From positions 5,518,001-5,582,000 of the forward strand of contig OY754475.1 in assembly GCA_963575645.1 (NCBI GenBank): a stretch of DNA of 64,000 nt, read 5' to 3'. Shown in pieces: positions 30,366-59,346 of the stretch; the stretch's first letter is position 1, and the number at the start of each line of letters is the position of its first letter. The position numbers were made by a program, and so were the translations under genes. This DNA is from Xanthostigma xanthostigma (taxonomy: Eukaryota; Arthropoda; Insecta; Raphidioptera; Raphidiidae). The notes below the pieces were generated by a model. The model was not told the DNA's origin, did not search any database, and was given only the letters and a program-made list of their open reading frames with translations.

Positions 30366-30566
30366 ATACCCGCCGAGAATGGCCCCCGGCTAATCCATGT
30401 CCCCAATCCTAATATCCGTGTATTCCATCCCTCATGTATCCCTGTTTTTGTTGCTTCATATTGCGTCGCTTATTTTCCCAATCATTCAATCCAGTTAATA
30501 CTTGTCGGAGTAAAGGCCATTTTGTTAATTATAAAAAAAATATAAATATAAATTCTTATTATTTTT

Positions 30567-30885
30567 TTCAACATATTTATTAACGTAAGTTTGTAACATG
30601 AATATTATTTACTTGAACATATTTATTAACGTAAGTTTGTAACATGAATATTATTTAATTCAACATATTTATTAACTAAGTTTGTAACATGAATATTATT
30701 TAATTCAACATATTTATTAACGTAAGTTTGTAACATAAATATTATTTAATTCGACATATTTATGAACGTAAGTTTGTAACATGAATGTTATTTAATTCAA
30801 CATATTTATTAACGTAAGTTTGTAACATGAATGTTATTTAATTCGACATATTTATTAACGTAAGTTTGTGACATGGATATTCATG
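30567..30885. repeat. 46 bp minisatellite derived from LTR sequence, seven units
   Basis: Units of about 46 bp, each containing ACATATTTATTAACGTAAGT and TTGTAACATGAATATTATTT, repeat seven times with few changes. The unit is the reverse complement of the LTR end seen at 30,886-30,936. Immediately after the last unit the orientation flips. Confidence 0.9.
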
Positions 30886-31217
30886 TTACAAACTTACGTT
30901 AATAAATATGTTGAATAAAATAATAATAATTGTTACAAGCTGGCGCCCAACGTGGGGCCCGATCACACTCGAAAATAAGTTTAAATGTCAATTTAAATTA
31001 ATGCGAAGTATAATTTTTGTGTAAAATTGTAAAGTAGTACAAACTGGCGCCCAACGTGGGGCGCCAGTTTGTAACAATTATTATTATTTTATTCAACAAA
31101 TTTATTAATTTAAGTTTTTTAACATGAACACTACTTCCTAGTTCATACGCTCCGCTGCCATCTTGCCTCTGTTTCTCTACACGACCGCCAGGGTACACCA
31201 GTGGCGGCGTGTTACAA
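30886..31217. mobile_element. Inverted LTR and primer-site complex
   Basis: Going left to right: a plus-strand LTR tail ending TTGTTACA (about 30,936); a tRNA-Lys primer site TGGCGCCCAACGTGGGGC; about 85 bp of leader-like DNA; a second primer site (from about 31,040); then a minus-strand LTR from 31,067 to 31,217, whose TGTAAC start is at 31,217. So two LTR ends point at each other across primer sites. No gag or pol is present. Confidence 0.8.
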
Positions 31218-41335: not shown

Positions 41336-41516
41336 CCTGTTGATGTTAAGACAGTTAAGAAAAAAATGTTTTAACTCGTTTTGTGGTTACGTTTTTACAC
41401 GCTTTATATTAACTTAACTTGTAAGTTTGTATGTATGCATGCTTGTTTGTAACCTTCGTTTGAACTACAGCAAGTGGTTTATTACTGTAGTATAATATGC
41501 CAGCACTGTAACTACA

Positions 41517-41606
41517 GTGGTTAGCCGTGCGGTCTAAGGCACGGGTCTTCGCTGACGTCAACTCTCGGAATCACACGGGTCGTGAGTTCTAATCCCGTCC
41601 ACGCCG
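41517..41606 (+). other. Type-II tRNA-like pseudogene or SINE head
   Basis: AGTGGTTAGCCGTGCGGTCT resembles a Leu/Ser-type A-box region and GTGAGTTCTAATCCC is a degraded B box. They are spaced for a long-variable-arm tRNA, but stems are broken and no anticodon can be assigned. It lies directly before palindrome P copy 2. Confidence 0.45.
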
Positions 41607-42915: not shown

Positions 42916-43039
42916 TTCCTGCAAAAATAGCAGGAAAACACAAAACGATTTTTGCTGAATCTTTTGTATGCACTGACGGTAATGTAGAACGCGATGTGTT
43001 ATTTCATTAAACAAAAAATTCCTGCAAATTCAGCAGGAA
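42916..43039 (+). repeat. Two isolated TTCCTGC hairpins upstream of array 1
   Basis: TTCCTGC...GCAGGAA hairpins at 42,916-42,936 and 43,019-43,039. The second has the same arm and loop lengths as array units but the 73 bp spacer sequence is absent. Confidence 0.75.
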
Positions 43040-43439
43040 TTTAATCACGACGCTAAATGTAGGTCACGCAAAAATGAATATATTACTTACATAACATGTT
43101 AAGTTCGTTTAAGTTTAAAATAAGATGAAAGTTTCAGAAAATTGGAGAGAAAACTTCCTAATTTAATTATTAAAGATTAGTTTATATTTATGATTATTTT
43201 CTAAAGGGGAGATATTTTAAGAATTTGTATGGCTGTTGATTAACTAAGAAATAACTTAACTAATAATATAACGCATACAGCCACGCTGCACCGCGTTTAC
43301 AAATAATAAAACTAAGAAATAAATGTTGTAAAAACCGGAGATGCCGAAAAATACATTTTAATGACTGAAAACAGTAGATTTTATACTTAGTGTCGTAATA
43401 ACGTTACGCACGACGTGTATATAGCATTTTTTAACACTA

Positions 43440-44005
43440 AGATGTCTTTCAAATACTACATAAAATGGGTTCTCTGAATAATTCCTGCAAATTCCAAAAG
43501 GAAAGATTATTAAGACGTTAAAATACTACATAAGAAGCCCTCTGAATTAATAGCAGGAATGATTATAAGACCGTTGTTAAAATACCAAATAAATGGGCCC
43601 TCTGAATAATTCCTGCAAATGTTAGCAGGATTGTTTTTTAAGACGTTGTTAAAATAAAACATAAAATGGGCCCTGTGAACAATTCCTGCAAATGTCAGCA
43701 GGAATGTTTATTAAGACGTTGTTAAAATACCAAATAAATGGGCCCTCTAAATAATTCCTAAAAATTCCAGTAGGAAAGATAATTCAGAAATTCTTACAAA
43801 CCACATAAAATGGGCCCTGTGAACAATTCCTGAAAATGTCAGCAGGAATGTTTATTAAGACGTTGTTATAATAGGCCCTCTGAGTAATTCCTGCAAATGT
43901 CAGCAGGAATTATTATAAAGACATTGTTAAAATGCCATATTTAAAATGGACCCTCTGTATAATTCCTGCGTATACCAGCAGGAATGATTGTTAAGATGTT
44001 TCCCA
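43440..44005 (+). repeat. Hairpin minisatellite, array 1
   Basis: About eight units of a 73 bp repeat. The consensus unit is a hairpin (AATTCCTGC, loop AAATGYCA, GCAGGAAT) followed by a conserved spacer with TTAAGACGTTGTTAAAATAC and AAATGGGCCCTCTGAAT. Hairpins start near 43,482, 43,610, 43,683, 43,755, 43,827, 43,888 and 43,963; one unit near 43,540 retains only the right half. The spacer is conserved, unlike a CRISPR. The arms differ less than the spacers, although several arms have one-base losses. No coding content. Confidence 0.85.
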
Positions 44006-44225
44006 CAGAGCTTTAGAGCTTCCAGTTGCAATTTAGTGGAACTGACATGAACTTAATTTCCAAGCAACGGCGTTCATTTCGTAACCGGAATTTGATATAA
44101 AGGATTTATCACTTGTGTCAGTTTTATTTGGCTATTTCAGGAAGCTGAAATATGCTATATCCAGCGGTTAATCTGTCTACCATTGTTTCAGATACATTAC
44201 AGCGGTGTCTGGAGTACTCAAGGGA

Positions 44226-44295
44226 CAGCCGGGTAGGTAGGACGGCCGAGCGGTCAGTGTGCTAACGGGGACGCTCTACCGGGTGGCCCATAATT
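44226..44295 (+). other. tRNA-like 5' fragment
   Basis: GACGGCCGAGCGGTCAGTGT resembles the 5' half of a Leu/Ser tRNA with an A box, but there is no B box or matching acceptor stem. Low-value tRNA-derived remnant. Confidence 0.3.
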
Positions 44296-45400
44296 CTTCG
44301 GCTGACTGTTAGCAGAAATATTGCGAGTTATTTTTGAACGAATTTTCGGTAACTAAAACTGTCTATTTGAAATCGCAATTTTGTTAAGGTTATCAAATAG
44401 CAAGATTGTTTGGGTTTAAACTACTGAAATAGTTTAGTTTGAGACGGCTTCTTCGGACACAATAGGGTACGAAAATTGTGGTATCATTAATTATGAAATT
44501 TATTTTGGTTCCACCTCGTATACTATAAGCTTTGTCTCGAGGCAAGGATTGTCAAAAGCAATTGTAAACGTCATTTGAAGGATGATCTATGCACTCCCAG
44601 AAGAAATATTATTAATCAGGACACTGCTGGCATTGCCAATTAAAGTTACTTTAGTACTTTGAAAATGTTCAAAAATATTATTTAAAACAACATTTTCGTT
44701 TAAATGTTACAAAAACACGCATTTTTTGTTAAAATTACATGACGTGGGTAAGCAAATATTTTTTGTTTATTTAAGAGTTTTTTGTAATTCTTGCAATGCA
44801 GCAGGAACGAGAAAAGTTTGCTATCCATATTTTTTACATCACGGCCTTTAAACTTCGTTCTGTAAACTGAAAAATATTTTGAAACTTTGATGATGTCCAC
44901 CAATAATATTATCCCAAAAAACATCGACACAGCAAGATAAAAAAATGCAACGTGCGCCTAAGAAGATAAAGTCATTGAGATGACAATGACGAACTATAAT
45001 GACAAAACGAGCAGTTGTTAAAAAAAAAAAATATTCCTGCTGTGCAGCAGGAAAAAAATTATTGATATTTTTTATATTATAAAAATATTTAGAACTGATG
45101 ACGTATGACACTAATATTAGTCTCCAAGATAGATACAAGGCGGGATACAAATTCAAAACGCGGCGCTTCCAAGAAAATATTATTGCGATGATTTTGTTGG
45201 AAAAAATGAGCATCGGGTGCCACGGATATGACATCAAAAGTTTGATGTTACCAGCAATCGCCTCGGAAAAATGAATGTTTACTGATATTTGAAGTTTGAT
45301 GTCATTCCTGCTGGCGCAGGAGAGGTACAGATTTTTGTTATCTCTCTTTTTAGGTGAATCTTTGCAATAAACATTGACAAAAACGCTCATACATTTGGAA
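44296..45400. other. Stretch between arrays with three lone hairpins
   Basis: TTCTTGCAATGCAGCAGGAA (44,788), TTCCTGCTGTGCAGCAGGAA (45,034) and TCCTGCTGGCGCAGGA (45,306) are arm matches without the array spacer. A 180-codon minus-strand frame spans 44,848-45,390 but has no domain, biased composition and crosses two hairpins, so I do not call it a gene. Confidence 0.5.
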
Positions 45401-46031
45401 TGAGAGTACAGAGAGAGAGAGAGCGACTAATGACAAAAATACATACTCCAAAAATGTAGATAAGGAGAAAATCTGATGAAAAGAGATCGATATACACATT
45501 GCATGATGCGAGCGAGAAAAGCTTGCCTTAGTTGCATGCAGGAGCGAAAAGAAAATATAATTTATAAACGAGAGAGAAAGTATTATTAGACGAGACAAAG
45601 ATATAGAAGGGCGCGGGAAAATCAATAAACAAAGAGAGCGTTAGTTCGCGAGCAGGCCGCACAGAGCCGCCACTTTACAAACAAAAGCTAAACATAATCT
45701 CGCTAGTTGGCGAATTTCGTTCGTCGACCGTCGGCGTGGCCGAGACGGCACGCGATGGGTTTTTGTTTGTTACACGAGATTCGATCTTGTTTTGTGTTTT
45801 GCATTTGCGCACTGATAACTTGGGACATTTTACGTTTCGTGTGAGGAAAATCTTGACATTAGGTTGGCTACCGTGTACGGCCGAGGTAGTTAACAACAAG
45901 AGGTATAATTAATTAACTATACTTTGAATCGTTTGGATCGAATCTTGTTGTAATTTATTATTATTAAAACATTTTTGTCATCATTTAAGTTCGGTTTTCA
46001 CGACTTCGGTTTCTTCGTTTCAATACTTTAG
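45400..46031 (+). promoter_or_regulatory. Candidate promoter and non-coding first exon
   Basis: A (GA)n tract at 45,411-45,423 and further GAGAGA runs precede a block (45,611-45,770) with an unusually high number of CpG for this window. GA-rich sites beside a CpG-rich core are typical of insect promoters. A strong plus-strand donor, TTTAG/GTGAGTT, lies at 46,031/46,032, and a weaker AG/GTATAA near 45,903. This suggests a plus-strand transcript starting here. Minus-strand use as a distant promoter of the DM13 gene is also possible. No coding exon is seen. Confidence 0.35.
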
Positions 46032-47239
46032 GTGAGTTAAAATATTGAATTTGTTTAATTTCTTGAAGTTTGCAGCACGCACGAATTTTGTCTATCTGCA
46101 CTGCAGCACTTGTTATAATGCACATGTTTTATTTTTAAATATTATTGAAAACAACTTTTCCGGGTTTTTTTGAATCGAAAAAATTTTAGACTGTTGAATA
46201 TTTACCGGTCGGAAATTAAAGTTGTTTTCGGTACGTTGTTTTTTCAAGGAGGTATTGATTAAATGATTTTCATTATTTCTGGGCCACTTACGTGAAAATT
46301 CGGCAACAAACGTGTTTGTGGTTTTTTTTTTATTTAAATAACAGCCGATTTATTTCGTCGCCATTTGAAATTTTAATTATCGTTATTTTATTTATAACTG
46401 CCCGTTGTATATTTTAACTGTATATACATTTGGGATGAACAAAAAAAAAATATAGTAGCCTTGACCTTTCCAGTTGAAGCGCTAAAATACAGGGCAGTTG
46501 CGATTTTTTTAGGTAATTATCAAAATATAATTAACTTCTGTAATTATAATAAAAAAAACATTAAATTAAAAACGTTGATTACTTACTGTCCCGTGTTTTT
46601 AATTACTGGAGTTTTTCGAATAAATAATTATTTATTTTTATGGTTTGAATTAATCATTACGACGTTAAAAACTCATTAAAAATGTGTTAATTACTTAGTT
46701 CTAAGTATCTGTTGCAATATATCTACGTTTTGAGTATCATTCATGAATGTACGATAACAATTTAATATTTTACTATTTATAACTTTACAACCTTTTGCTA
46801 TATGGTTGATGACTGATAAAGTTGCTGACATCTAGTATACGGCCTGGAAAACTTCCGTTAACCCAACGCTAATTTTATTATTCACAGCTCAAACATTTCA
46901 TAAACCACAACCAAAAAAAAATCAAATTACAAAAATTTCAATTTTCTTCAGTTTTTTTTCTAATACACGTTTTGAAAAACTTTTGGATCACGGTGTATTA
47001 TACTTTATTAAAAAAATGTAAGTAATAATAGGTGGGCAGTGAGGTTATACGTCAGATGAATTACAATCGTGTCATCAATAACGAAGTATTCACTTGTTTA
47101 TGACGATTGTTTCTCAATTGTTTTATCGATGACCTTGTCTGATATTCTATTCCTCTATATTCATTTTTTACGTACTAATTCTGGACTGAAGAATGGATTT
47201 TCGGAAAATCTGATTTGACAACGACCTTAGATTGTTACC
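46032..47239. other. Stretch between promoter candidate and array 2
   Basis: AT-rich, looks unique, no repeat family recognised. If the donor at 46,032 is real this is the start of an intron. Confidence 0.4.
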
Positions 47240-47795
47240 ATACATATTTCTCCAAACTAGCAGGATTAATAAAATGGGTTCTTTCAATAATTCCTGCCAA
47301 TGCCAGCAGGAATGATATTCATATACCACATAAAATACAACTTATGTATAATTCCTGCAAATACCAGCAGGAATTATTATTCAGACGACGTACAAATTCC
47401 ACTTAAAACGGGCCCCCTGAATAATTCCTGCAAAAGCCAGCAGGAATGATTATTAAGATGTTGTTGAAATACTATATAAAAAAGGCTTTCAGGATAATTT
47501 CTGTAATTATCAGCAGGAATTATTATAAAGACGTTATTAAAAAAACAATTTAAAAAGGACCATCTATATAATTCCTGCAAATGTGGATAGGAAAGATTTT
47601 AAAAACGTTGATAAATACCACATAAAAAGGACCTTCAAAATAAGTCCTGCAAATACCAGCAGGAATGAATATTAAGACGTAACAATACTATTTAAAAAGG
47701 GCCTTCTGTATAATTTCTGCAATTATCAGCAGGATTTTTTTTAAGATCACTAAATAAGGCCCTCTGTATAATACCTGCAAATGCCATCAGATGTT
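47240..47795 (+). repeat. Hairpin minisatellite, array 2
   Basis: Eight or nine units of the same 73 bp repeat as array 1 and in the same orientation. Hairpins start near 47,291, 47,352, 47,425, 47,498, 47,572, 47,644, 47,714 and 47,772, spaced mostly 70-74 bp. Loop is usually AAATRCCA. Spacer has TATTAAGACGTT and GGGCCCYCTGAAT, with more mutations than in array 1. The last unit is half lost. Confidence 0.85.
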
Positions 47796-48324
47796 TAGAT
47801 ACTGAGGAAACTAGATGCTGGACAACTAAGGTCATTAGATTGAACGTAGCTGTAATATAGAGATCGATGTAACTGAGTATACTGGGTTAGTGAGGTAACT
47901 ATTTAGCTTCAACCGGTCATAATAGTCAACAAAAAATTTAGGTCAGATTGTTGACCTCACATTTTTGTACCTGAATACAAAAACAATATTTGTTTCCAAT
48001 TTGCACGTAAATCTTGTCTGGGCATATAACTCTAATTCTATAATTAGCGCAGGAAGTCGTAATCAGTTAATTGTTTTGCTTGGCTAGGTAATTAGTAATT
48101 AATTAATTAATAACTATTTCATATATCTCAAAATTAGAATGGTTTCAATATTTCAATTATATTCCATCCTGAAATAGTATAGAATAATGAATCGTTTCTA
48201 TTTGAAGTTTTTGAGAAACTACAGTTGTTACATAGCGTAGGTCCCTAGTCATTTTCAAATGCAGGAAATCCGATAAACTTTAAAACTGTTCTTAACGTTA
48301 TCTATATAGATTTATAACAATATA
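47796..48324. other. Stretch after array 2, nothing recognised
   Basis: Unique-looking AT-rich DNA. Confidence 0.4.
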
Positions 48325-48490
48325 ACGTTGCAAAAAATGTTTCCACAAAAAGCGCTTTTATTTTAACGCGATAACATATAGCCTATGTCCTTCCTGAAGG
48401 TTTGTTCTAAATATTGGTGAAAAATTTTTGAAATCGGATGAGTAGTTTTGGAGATTGCCTTCTGCATCCAAACTTACAAATTGCCTAATC
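48325..48490 (-). mobile_element. Helitron family B, left half of an inverted pair
   Basis: It contains CGCGATAACATATAGCCTAT and CGGATGAGTAGTTTTGGAGA, that is, family B on the minus strand. It lacks its own CTAG end and meets the plus-strand copy at the TCTATACTAATA side. Confidence 0.75.
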
Positions 48491-48724
48491 ATTACTAATA
48501 TTATAATGAGGAGTGCGAATTTTGTAAGTTTGTGTAGGTATATCCGGACGGCAAACTCCGAAACTACTCATCCGATTTCAAAAATGTTTTCATCAATATT
48601 TAGAATGGACATAGGCTACATATTATCACGTTAAAAAAAAAATAGACACCAATTTTGCAACGTAAGTCGACGAAAAAAACGGTGGCAATCTACGAATTCG
48701 AGCGAAGCCGAACTGGGCCGCTAG
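48491..48724 (+). mobile_element. Helitron family B, right half of an inverted pair
   Basis: Starts about CATTACTAATATTATAATGA and ends GAGCGAAGCCGAACTGGGCC-GCTAG (48,724) before T. Blocks CCGAAACTACTCATCCGATT and GCAACGTAAGTCGACGAAAA are present. Confidence 0.8.
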
Positions 48725-58889: not shown

Positions 58890-59346
58890 CAGACTTGTAA
58901 AAAATACTTTTTAAAAGTATTTAAATACAAATTATACTTTTGCTGCAAGACTTGTAAAAACACTTAAAAAAAAAAATAAAAAATTCGCGTCGACTTGAGA
59001 ACCTCCTCCGTTTTTGTTTTTCGTCGGTTAAAAAGTGTGTGAAATACAAATACTAGAAAAGTACTTGAAATACAAAAACTAGAAAAGTATTTGAAATACA
59101 AAAACTAGAAAAGTACTTGAAATACAAATACTAGAAAAGTATTTGAAATACAAATACTAGGCAAGTATTTGAAATACAAATACTAGAAAAGTATTTGAAA
59201 TACAAATACTAGAAAAGTATTTGAAATACAAATACTAGAAAAGTATTTGAAATACAAATACTAGCAAAGTATTTGAAATACAAATACTAGAAAAGTACTT
59301 GAAATACAAATACTAAACAAGTATTCTGAAATACTTTACAAGTCTG
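58890..59346. mobile_element. hAT element with internal tandem expansion
   Basis: Tips CAGACTTGTAA (58,890) and TTACAAGTCTG (59,346). Flanking eight bases GTAATTGA and CTATTTGA agree at six positions. It contains a 60 bp fragment of family E (58,975-59,035) and the tandem repeat at 59,037-59,330. Confidence 0.75.
59037..59330. repeat. 22-23 bp tandem repeat, about 13 units
   Basis: Units of TACTAGAAAAGTATTTGAAA-TACAAA, with T/C variation at one position (AGTATTT or AGTACTT). The array lies wholly inside the hAT element, so it grew from that element's own sequence. Confidence 0.85.

Follow-up and report, generated by a model that had tools for sequence, protein, structure and literature searches.

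Organization of the Locus

The analysed stretch of DNA (64,000 bp, hereafter the window) carries 20 two-armed copies of a hairpin motif within 4.9 kb (42.9–47.8 kb), 15 of them in two tandem arrays of a 73-bp unit and five of them solitary. The features of this region are the following:

42916–42936, plus strand: solitary hairpin I1, loop of 7
43019–43039, plus strand: solitary hairpin I2, loop of 7; 10-bp stem as RNA
43438–44003, plus strand: array A, eight units of about 73 bp each, A2 without left arm (TRF, repeat search, BLAST, unit profile)
44788–44807, plus strand: solitary hairpin I3, loop of 6; one C to T change in the left arm
45034–45053, orientation ambiguous: solitary hairpin I4, loop of 6
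45305–45322, orientation ambiguous: solitary hairpin I5, loop of 4; A to G change in the last arm base
45402–46031, plus strand: putative promoter and first exon, with GAGAG starts, CpG-rich, AG/GTGAGT after 46031; midway between the arrays
47257–47800, plus strand: array B, eight units and a right-arm relic at the left edge (TRF, repeat search, unit profile)

TRF reported array A as a repeat of period 72–73 at 43552–44000 (6.3 copies, 74% matches) and array B as a repeat of the same period at 47348–47734 (5.3 copies, 70% matches). A nine-unit profile recovered 16 units, eight per array (43461–44000 and 47270–47792), and the start of array A was pushed out to 43438 by a repeat search and BLAST. 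The two same-orientation arrays of about eight 73-bp units reported in the preliminary description are thus borne out by both TRF and the unit profile. The dyad TTCCTGC-N8-GCAGGAA is present in 15 two-armed array units, always with a loop of 8; both arms are unchanged in six of these hairpins and arm changes occur in the other nine. Unit A2 has lost its left arm (its right arm lies at 43553), and array B includes an extra right-arm relic, GCAGGAT, at 47260–47266. Successive two-armed array hairpins are 58–75 bp apart, with 128 bp across the damaged A2.

The array units and I1–I3 match the unit profile on the plus strand, and the orientation of I4 and I5 is ambiguous because the profile scores slightly higher on the minus strand. 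Three of the five solitary hairpins have perfect arms; as these copies were found via their arms, the intact arms are no independent evidence of constraint. Neighbouring solitary copies are alike (I1/I2, 85% over 27 nt; I3/I4, 86% over 21 nt). Their flanks (43 bp per side, both orientations) were scored against ten array units, and up to 400 places in the window outside 42.8–47.9 kb provided the background. The flanks of I1, I2, I3 and I5 were ordinary in all 16 comparisons, and in 17 of the total of 20 at least 20% of the background places scored equally high. The A-rich flanks of I4, a borderline case, fell in the 0.5–3.3% tail in three of four comparisons. Three array units used as controls scored 18.9–29.5, against a background mean of about 4. 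Since the solitary flanks are unrelated to the unit, it is the dyad, not the 73-bp unit, that recurs. The five hairpins said to lack the spacer are therefore real, with flanks unlike the unit (I4 being borderline), and the last of them starts at 45305 and not at 45306.

Surroundings of the Arrays

With moderate to low confidence, we place a putative promoter and first exon between the arrays. Nine GAGAG starts, out of 62 on the plus strand of the window, lie at 45402–45634; the stretch 45.4–46.1 kb is among the CpG-richest, with three other places in the window equally high; and AG/GTGAGT, picked by eye, follows position 46031. The splice-donor pattern [CA]AG/GTRAGT was found on neither strand of the 64-kb window. 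The array centres (about 43.72 and 47.53 kb) are each about 1.9 kb from about 45.6 kb, so the midpoint of the arrays is the GAGAG- and CpG-rich stretch itself. The CpG observed/expected ratio averages 1.32 over 500-bp windows (whole stretch, 1–64000), apparently a high value even among insects. A published screen did not find GAGA factor in the Lepidoptera that it covered (PMC5094011), so a role for this factor would not apply in a moth.

The window contains 303 frames of at least 50 aa; seven stop-to-stop frames reach at least 120 aa. The longest (192 aa, 44848–45426, minus strand) lies between the arrays and spans I4 and I5. Pfam gave no match for 15 frames, this one and all the others of at least 120 aa included, in a search whose scope leaves short exons aside, and a coding role was rejected on this result.

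Interspersed repeats abound in the window. At 30557–31070, copies of a 46-bp unit form an array, behind which come an inverted copy and then, near 31045, TGGCGCCCAACGTGGGGC, which resembles a tRNA-Lys primer-binding site of an LTR retroelement. A tRNA-like stretch with A- and B-box-like words lies at 41505–41600 and may be a SINE. A member of a repeat family with several copies in the window is located at 48325–48724 and has 48-nt inverted arms that are 88% complementary.

Relationship and Age of the Arrays

Unit identity is 79% within array A, 68% within array B and 71% between them. In the unit tree, the A and B units interleave (supports 0.00–0.88), and none of the unit-order registers of A against B stands out (0.68–0.77). 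The 487–500 bp flanks of the two arrays gave no alignment above shuffles in four comparisons. Neither the unrelated flanks nor the lack of positional correspondence between the units is what one duplicated segment would show; the segmental duplication of one array was rejected on these grounds, and the fallback reading of a minisatellite that was duplicated once finds no support either. Units A4 and A6 are 98% alike, which indicates a recent internal duplication in array A, and pairwise unit identities down to 55% suggest that the arrays are old.

As in a minisatellite, the copies stand head to tail and the unit falls within 10–100 bp. The 73-bp unit occurs in the arrays alone; the motif, however, also occurs outside them, as five dyads in unrelated flanks, which departs from the definition of a minisatellite.

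Distribution of the Motif and Other Hairpins

The exact pattern TTCCTGC-N(2-12)-GCAGGAA occurs nine times in the window and in none of 100 dinucleotide shuffles. A covariance model built from the 20 hairpins recovered all 20 on the plus strand; as these were its own training set, only the best other place in the 64-kb window, with an E-value of 0.68, is telling, and no convincing further copy was found there. A scan allowing up to three arm mismatches returned 48 rows, many of them one hairpin with other loop lengths. Eight rows lay outside the motif, which is the chance level (5–18 rows in each of ten Markov sequences).

Exact matches to the core-unit pattern were absent from IMG/VR and GTDB genomes; this would be expected of a repeat from an animal and says little on insects. 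The bare TTCCTGC-N(2-12)-GCAGGAA pattern is also present in viral contigs, in at least 120 stretches. Among the matches listed, one viral contig (L060) has three tandem hairpins 31–32 bp apart; it was taken to be unrelated to the 73-bp arrays, since both spacing and loop differ. Searches of the literature on hairpin, satellite, insulator and enhancer minisatellites in Lepidoptera, and on ETS sites with Bombyx, found nothing matching among the papers listed, which is no proof of absence in print.

A second array with a hairpin unit is located at 59031–59334 (26-bp unit, 11.7 copies). Its unit is an unrelated 8-bp dyad, AGTATTTG-AAATA-CAAATACT, reached by none of 500 unit shuffles; the dyad of the 73-bp unit was reached by six of 500. 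It is one of five tandem units tested besides the 73-bp unit; in the remaining four the dyad is nothing out of the ordinary (218–435 of 500 shuffles do as well). Perfect hairpins in the window amount to 41 rows, with nested ones counted apart, against 7–9 in five Markov sequences, and 18 of the 41 belong to the motif described here.

Conservation of the Arms

Variation was assessed in 58 ungapped columns of 15 units, leaving out A2 for want of its left arm. The mean pairwise difference was 0.169 in the 14 arm columns against 0.316 in the other 44 (column permutation p = 0.004, indicative only, as the columns are treated as independent and the units are related). By region, it rose from the left arm (0.144) through the adjoining upstream AATAA (0.189), the right arm (0.193), the TAAAAT region (0.269) and the loop (0.290) to GGGCCCTCTG (0.349) and the downstream part (0.377). 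The block of 7+8+7 columns with the lowest variation sits 1–2 bp off the arms (0.126–0.127). Constraint, if any, falls on AATTCCT...CAGCAGGA and not strictly on the paired columns. Of the earlier interpretation, two parts are supported: the dyad recurs without its spacer, and its arms vary less than other parts of the unit.

Compensatory evolution of the stem, for which a check had been suggested, fared less well. Among 140 arm pairs, ten are broken, seven are G-U on the plus strand and two are compensatory, one of the latter in the decayed edge unit B8. The two double-changed pairs were equalled in 41 of 500 shuffles and the covariation score in 23 of 500; an extended stem in the 15 array units did no better (55 of 500). 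Changes in the left and right arms are independent (Fisher p = 0.62), and the covariation term of RNAalifold is just −0.26 kcal/mol. In favour of structure, the covariation of the true register (0.141) exceeds that of all slid registers (at most 0.063), a control that leans towards the structure derived from the consensus. Arm changes give G-U on the plus strand seven times and A-C three times, a strand bias that is not significant (p = 0.34). Compensation is thus weak, and the structure reading is without clear support. The test set beforehand, by which arm changes should be both rarer and more compensatory than spacer changes, gave a divided answer: they are rarer than changes in the other columns and are not clearly compensatory. 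Changes that mostly lack compensation, and arms that change independently, are more in keeping with a pair of half-sites in DNA than with a folded RNA.

Twelve of the 20 hairpins were folded as RNA and gave stems of 7–18 pairs, the longest interrupted, with z-scores from −2.2 to −6.4. The two arrays likewise give more stable folds than their shuffles (z = −4.1 and −6.2), as expected of a dyad repeat. A hairpin-siRNA precursor, one of the roles suggested earlier, is unlikely: such stems look too short for Dicer, and no long duplex arises from the arrays because their units all run in the same direction. Rfam contained no matching family for the region, the one match (E-value of 0.65, 24.9 bits against a gathering score of 55) lying off the hairpins, and the RNA family reading was rejected on this basis. 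A tRNA reading of the motif region was also tried and rejected.

Possible Origin and Function

Based on the above results, we tentatively put first the reading that the hairpins are DNA-level dyad sites for a paired protein within one regulatory region, in the manner of insulator arrays or baculovirus hr enhancers. The hairpin would represent a binding site of about 24 bp (ATTCCTGC-N8-GCAGGAAT) for a presumed dimeric or paired sequence-specific protein, and about 20 such sites would cluster in a single regulatory region surrounding a probable promoter. No result contradicts the protein-binding or insulator role suggested earlier. The two tandem arrays would amplify the site, and the solitary upstream copies would have kept the arms while their flanks and loops diverged. 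Arrays of this kind would raise the local occupancy of the protein and may act as an enhancer or a boundary. The recurrence of the dyad without the unit, and within 4.9 kb of the window only, fits such a cluster of regulatory DNA sites. Against this reading, the arm spacing varies between 4 and 8 bp among the copies, which is unusual for a rigid dimer, and the AATAA beside the arm is nearly as conserved as the arms. We know of no protein for a TTCCTGC-N8-GCAGGAA site; its GGAA core only resembles ETS sites.

Ranked just below the dyad sites, and almost as likely, is a neutral repeat driven by the hairpin itself. The locus would then be an old, functionless minisatellite that dyad-prone slippage and template switching copied in tandem with the spacer and sometimes alone nearby, and the arms would look conserved since palindrome-templated repair tends to restore them. 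The unrelated hairpin unit at 59031–59334, which no shuffle equalled, and the general excess of perfect hairpins in the window agree with such a process. So do the likeness of neighbouring solitary copies, as local copying would give, the recent duplication of A4/A6 and the decay of most array hairpins. On the other hand, tandem slippage alone does not explain two arrays without related flanks or positional match, or the five spacer-free copies; arm variation is about half that of the remaining unit columns; and most of the other tandem units tested have no unusual dyad, so hairpin units are not the rule.

A mobile origin, with a short hairpin or a piece of a larger mobile element inserting on its own and two of the insertions then expanding in tandem into the arrays, is in our view quite unlikely. 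Copies with unrelated flanks in a window rich in interspersed repeats are what such an element would leave, yet the copies are packed into 4.9 kb, the remainder of the window offers no convincing one, their loop lengths differ and the arrays share no flanks; the lack of an exact IMG/VR or GTDB match for the core-unit pattern also counts against it, with little bearing on insects. A transcribed RNA with bound or processed hairpins is very unlikely: the folding of the 12 hairpins and of both arrays, better on average than in shuffles, the G-U changes and the register comparison speak for it, whereas the non-significant strand bias, the covariation that is weak against shuffles and the lack of an Rfam family speak against it, any DNA dyad folds well as RNA, and the copies lie on both sides of the putative start, so that a single transcript is not assured.

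If the dyads are protein sites, the locus offers a compact, naturally occurring array in which a regulatory protein could be sought and the effect of repeated sites around a promoter studied, the solitary copies serving as internal controls. As a mere product of its hairpin, it would neatly illustrate how a palindrome can spread over a short distance, in some copies together with the spacer and in others alone.

Comparison with Known Systems

The arrays share their unit size, tandem arrangement, diverged copies and recent internal duplication with minisatellites whose units form dyads. They differ from these in that the dyad also stands alone in unrelated flanks and that two arrays with unrelated flanks lie in one 4.9-kb region.

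Gypsy-type insulator arrays (Su(Hw) clusters) hold many copies of one binding site within a few hundred bp near a gene. The locus would resemble them in having many copies of one putative site near a predicted gene; the Su(Hw) sites themselves differ from this dyad.

For the dyad-site reading, the closest working model may be the baculovirus hr enhancers, by likeness of manner and not by membership. The hr regions, found at several places, are built from direct repeats that each contain a roughly 30-bp imperfect palindrome; the palindromes are bound by the viral transactivator IE-1 and have enhancer and origin activity (PMC2834656, PMC6669502). The present motif differs from them in sequence, the GAATTC (EcoRI) core being found in none of the 20 aligned hairpins. 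It also lies in eukaryote-like non-coding DNA, in which no viral gene was recognised among the 15 frames compared with Pfam. A silkmoth preprint considers loop-extrusion barriers possible and names as candidates the conserved proteins CTCF, CP190 and Mod(mdg4) (PMC11326380); from this proposal one may speculate that undiscovered boundary proteins act here as well. An unlikely extension of the comparison is a nuclear, host-gene counterpart of hr, in a lineage whose set of insulator proteins is poorly known: the symmetric old arrays and the solitary sites would pair via a dimeric protein and form a loop or boundary around the start of a gene.
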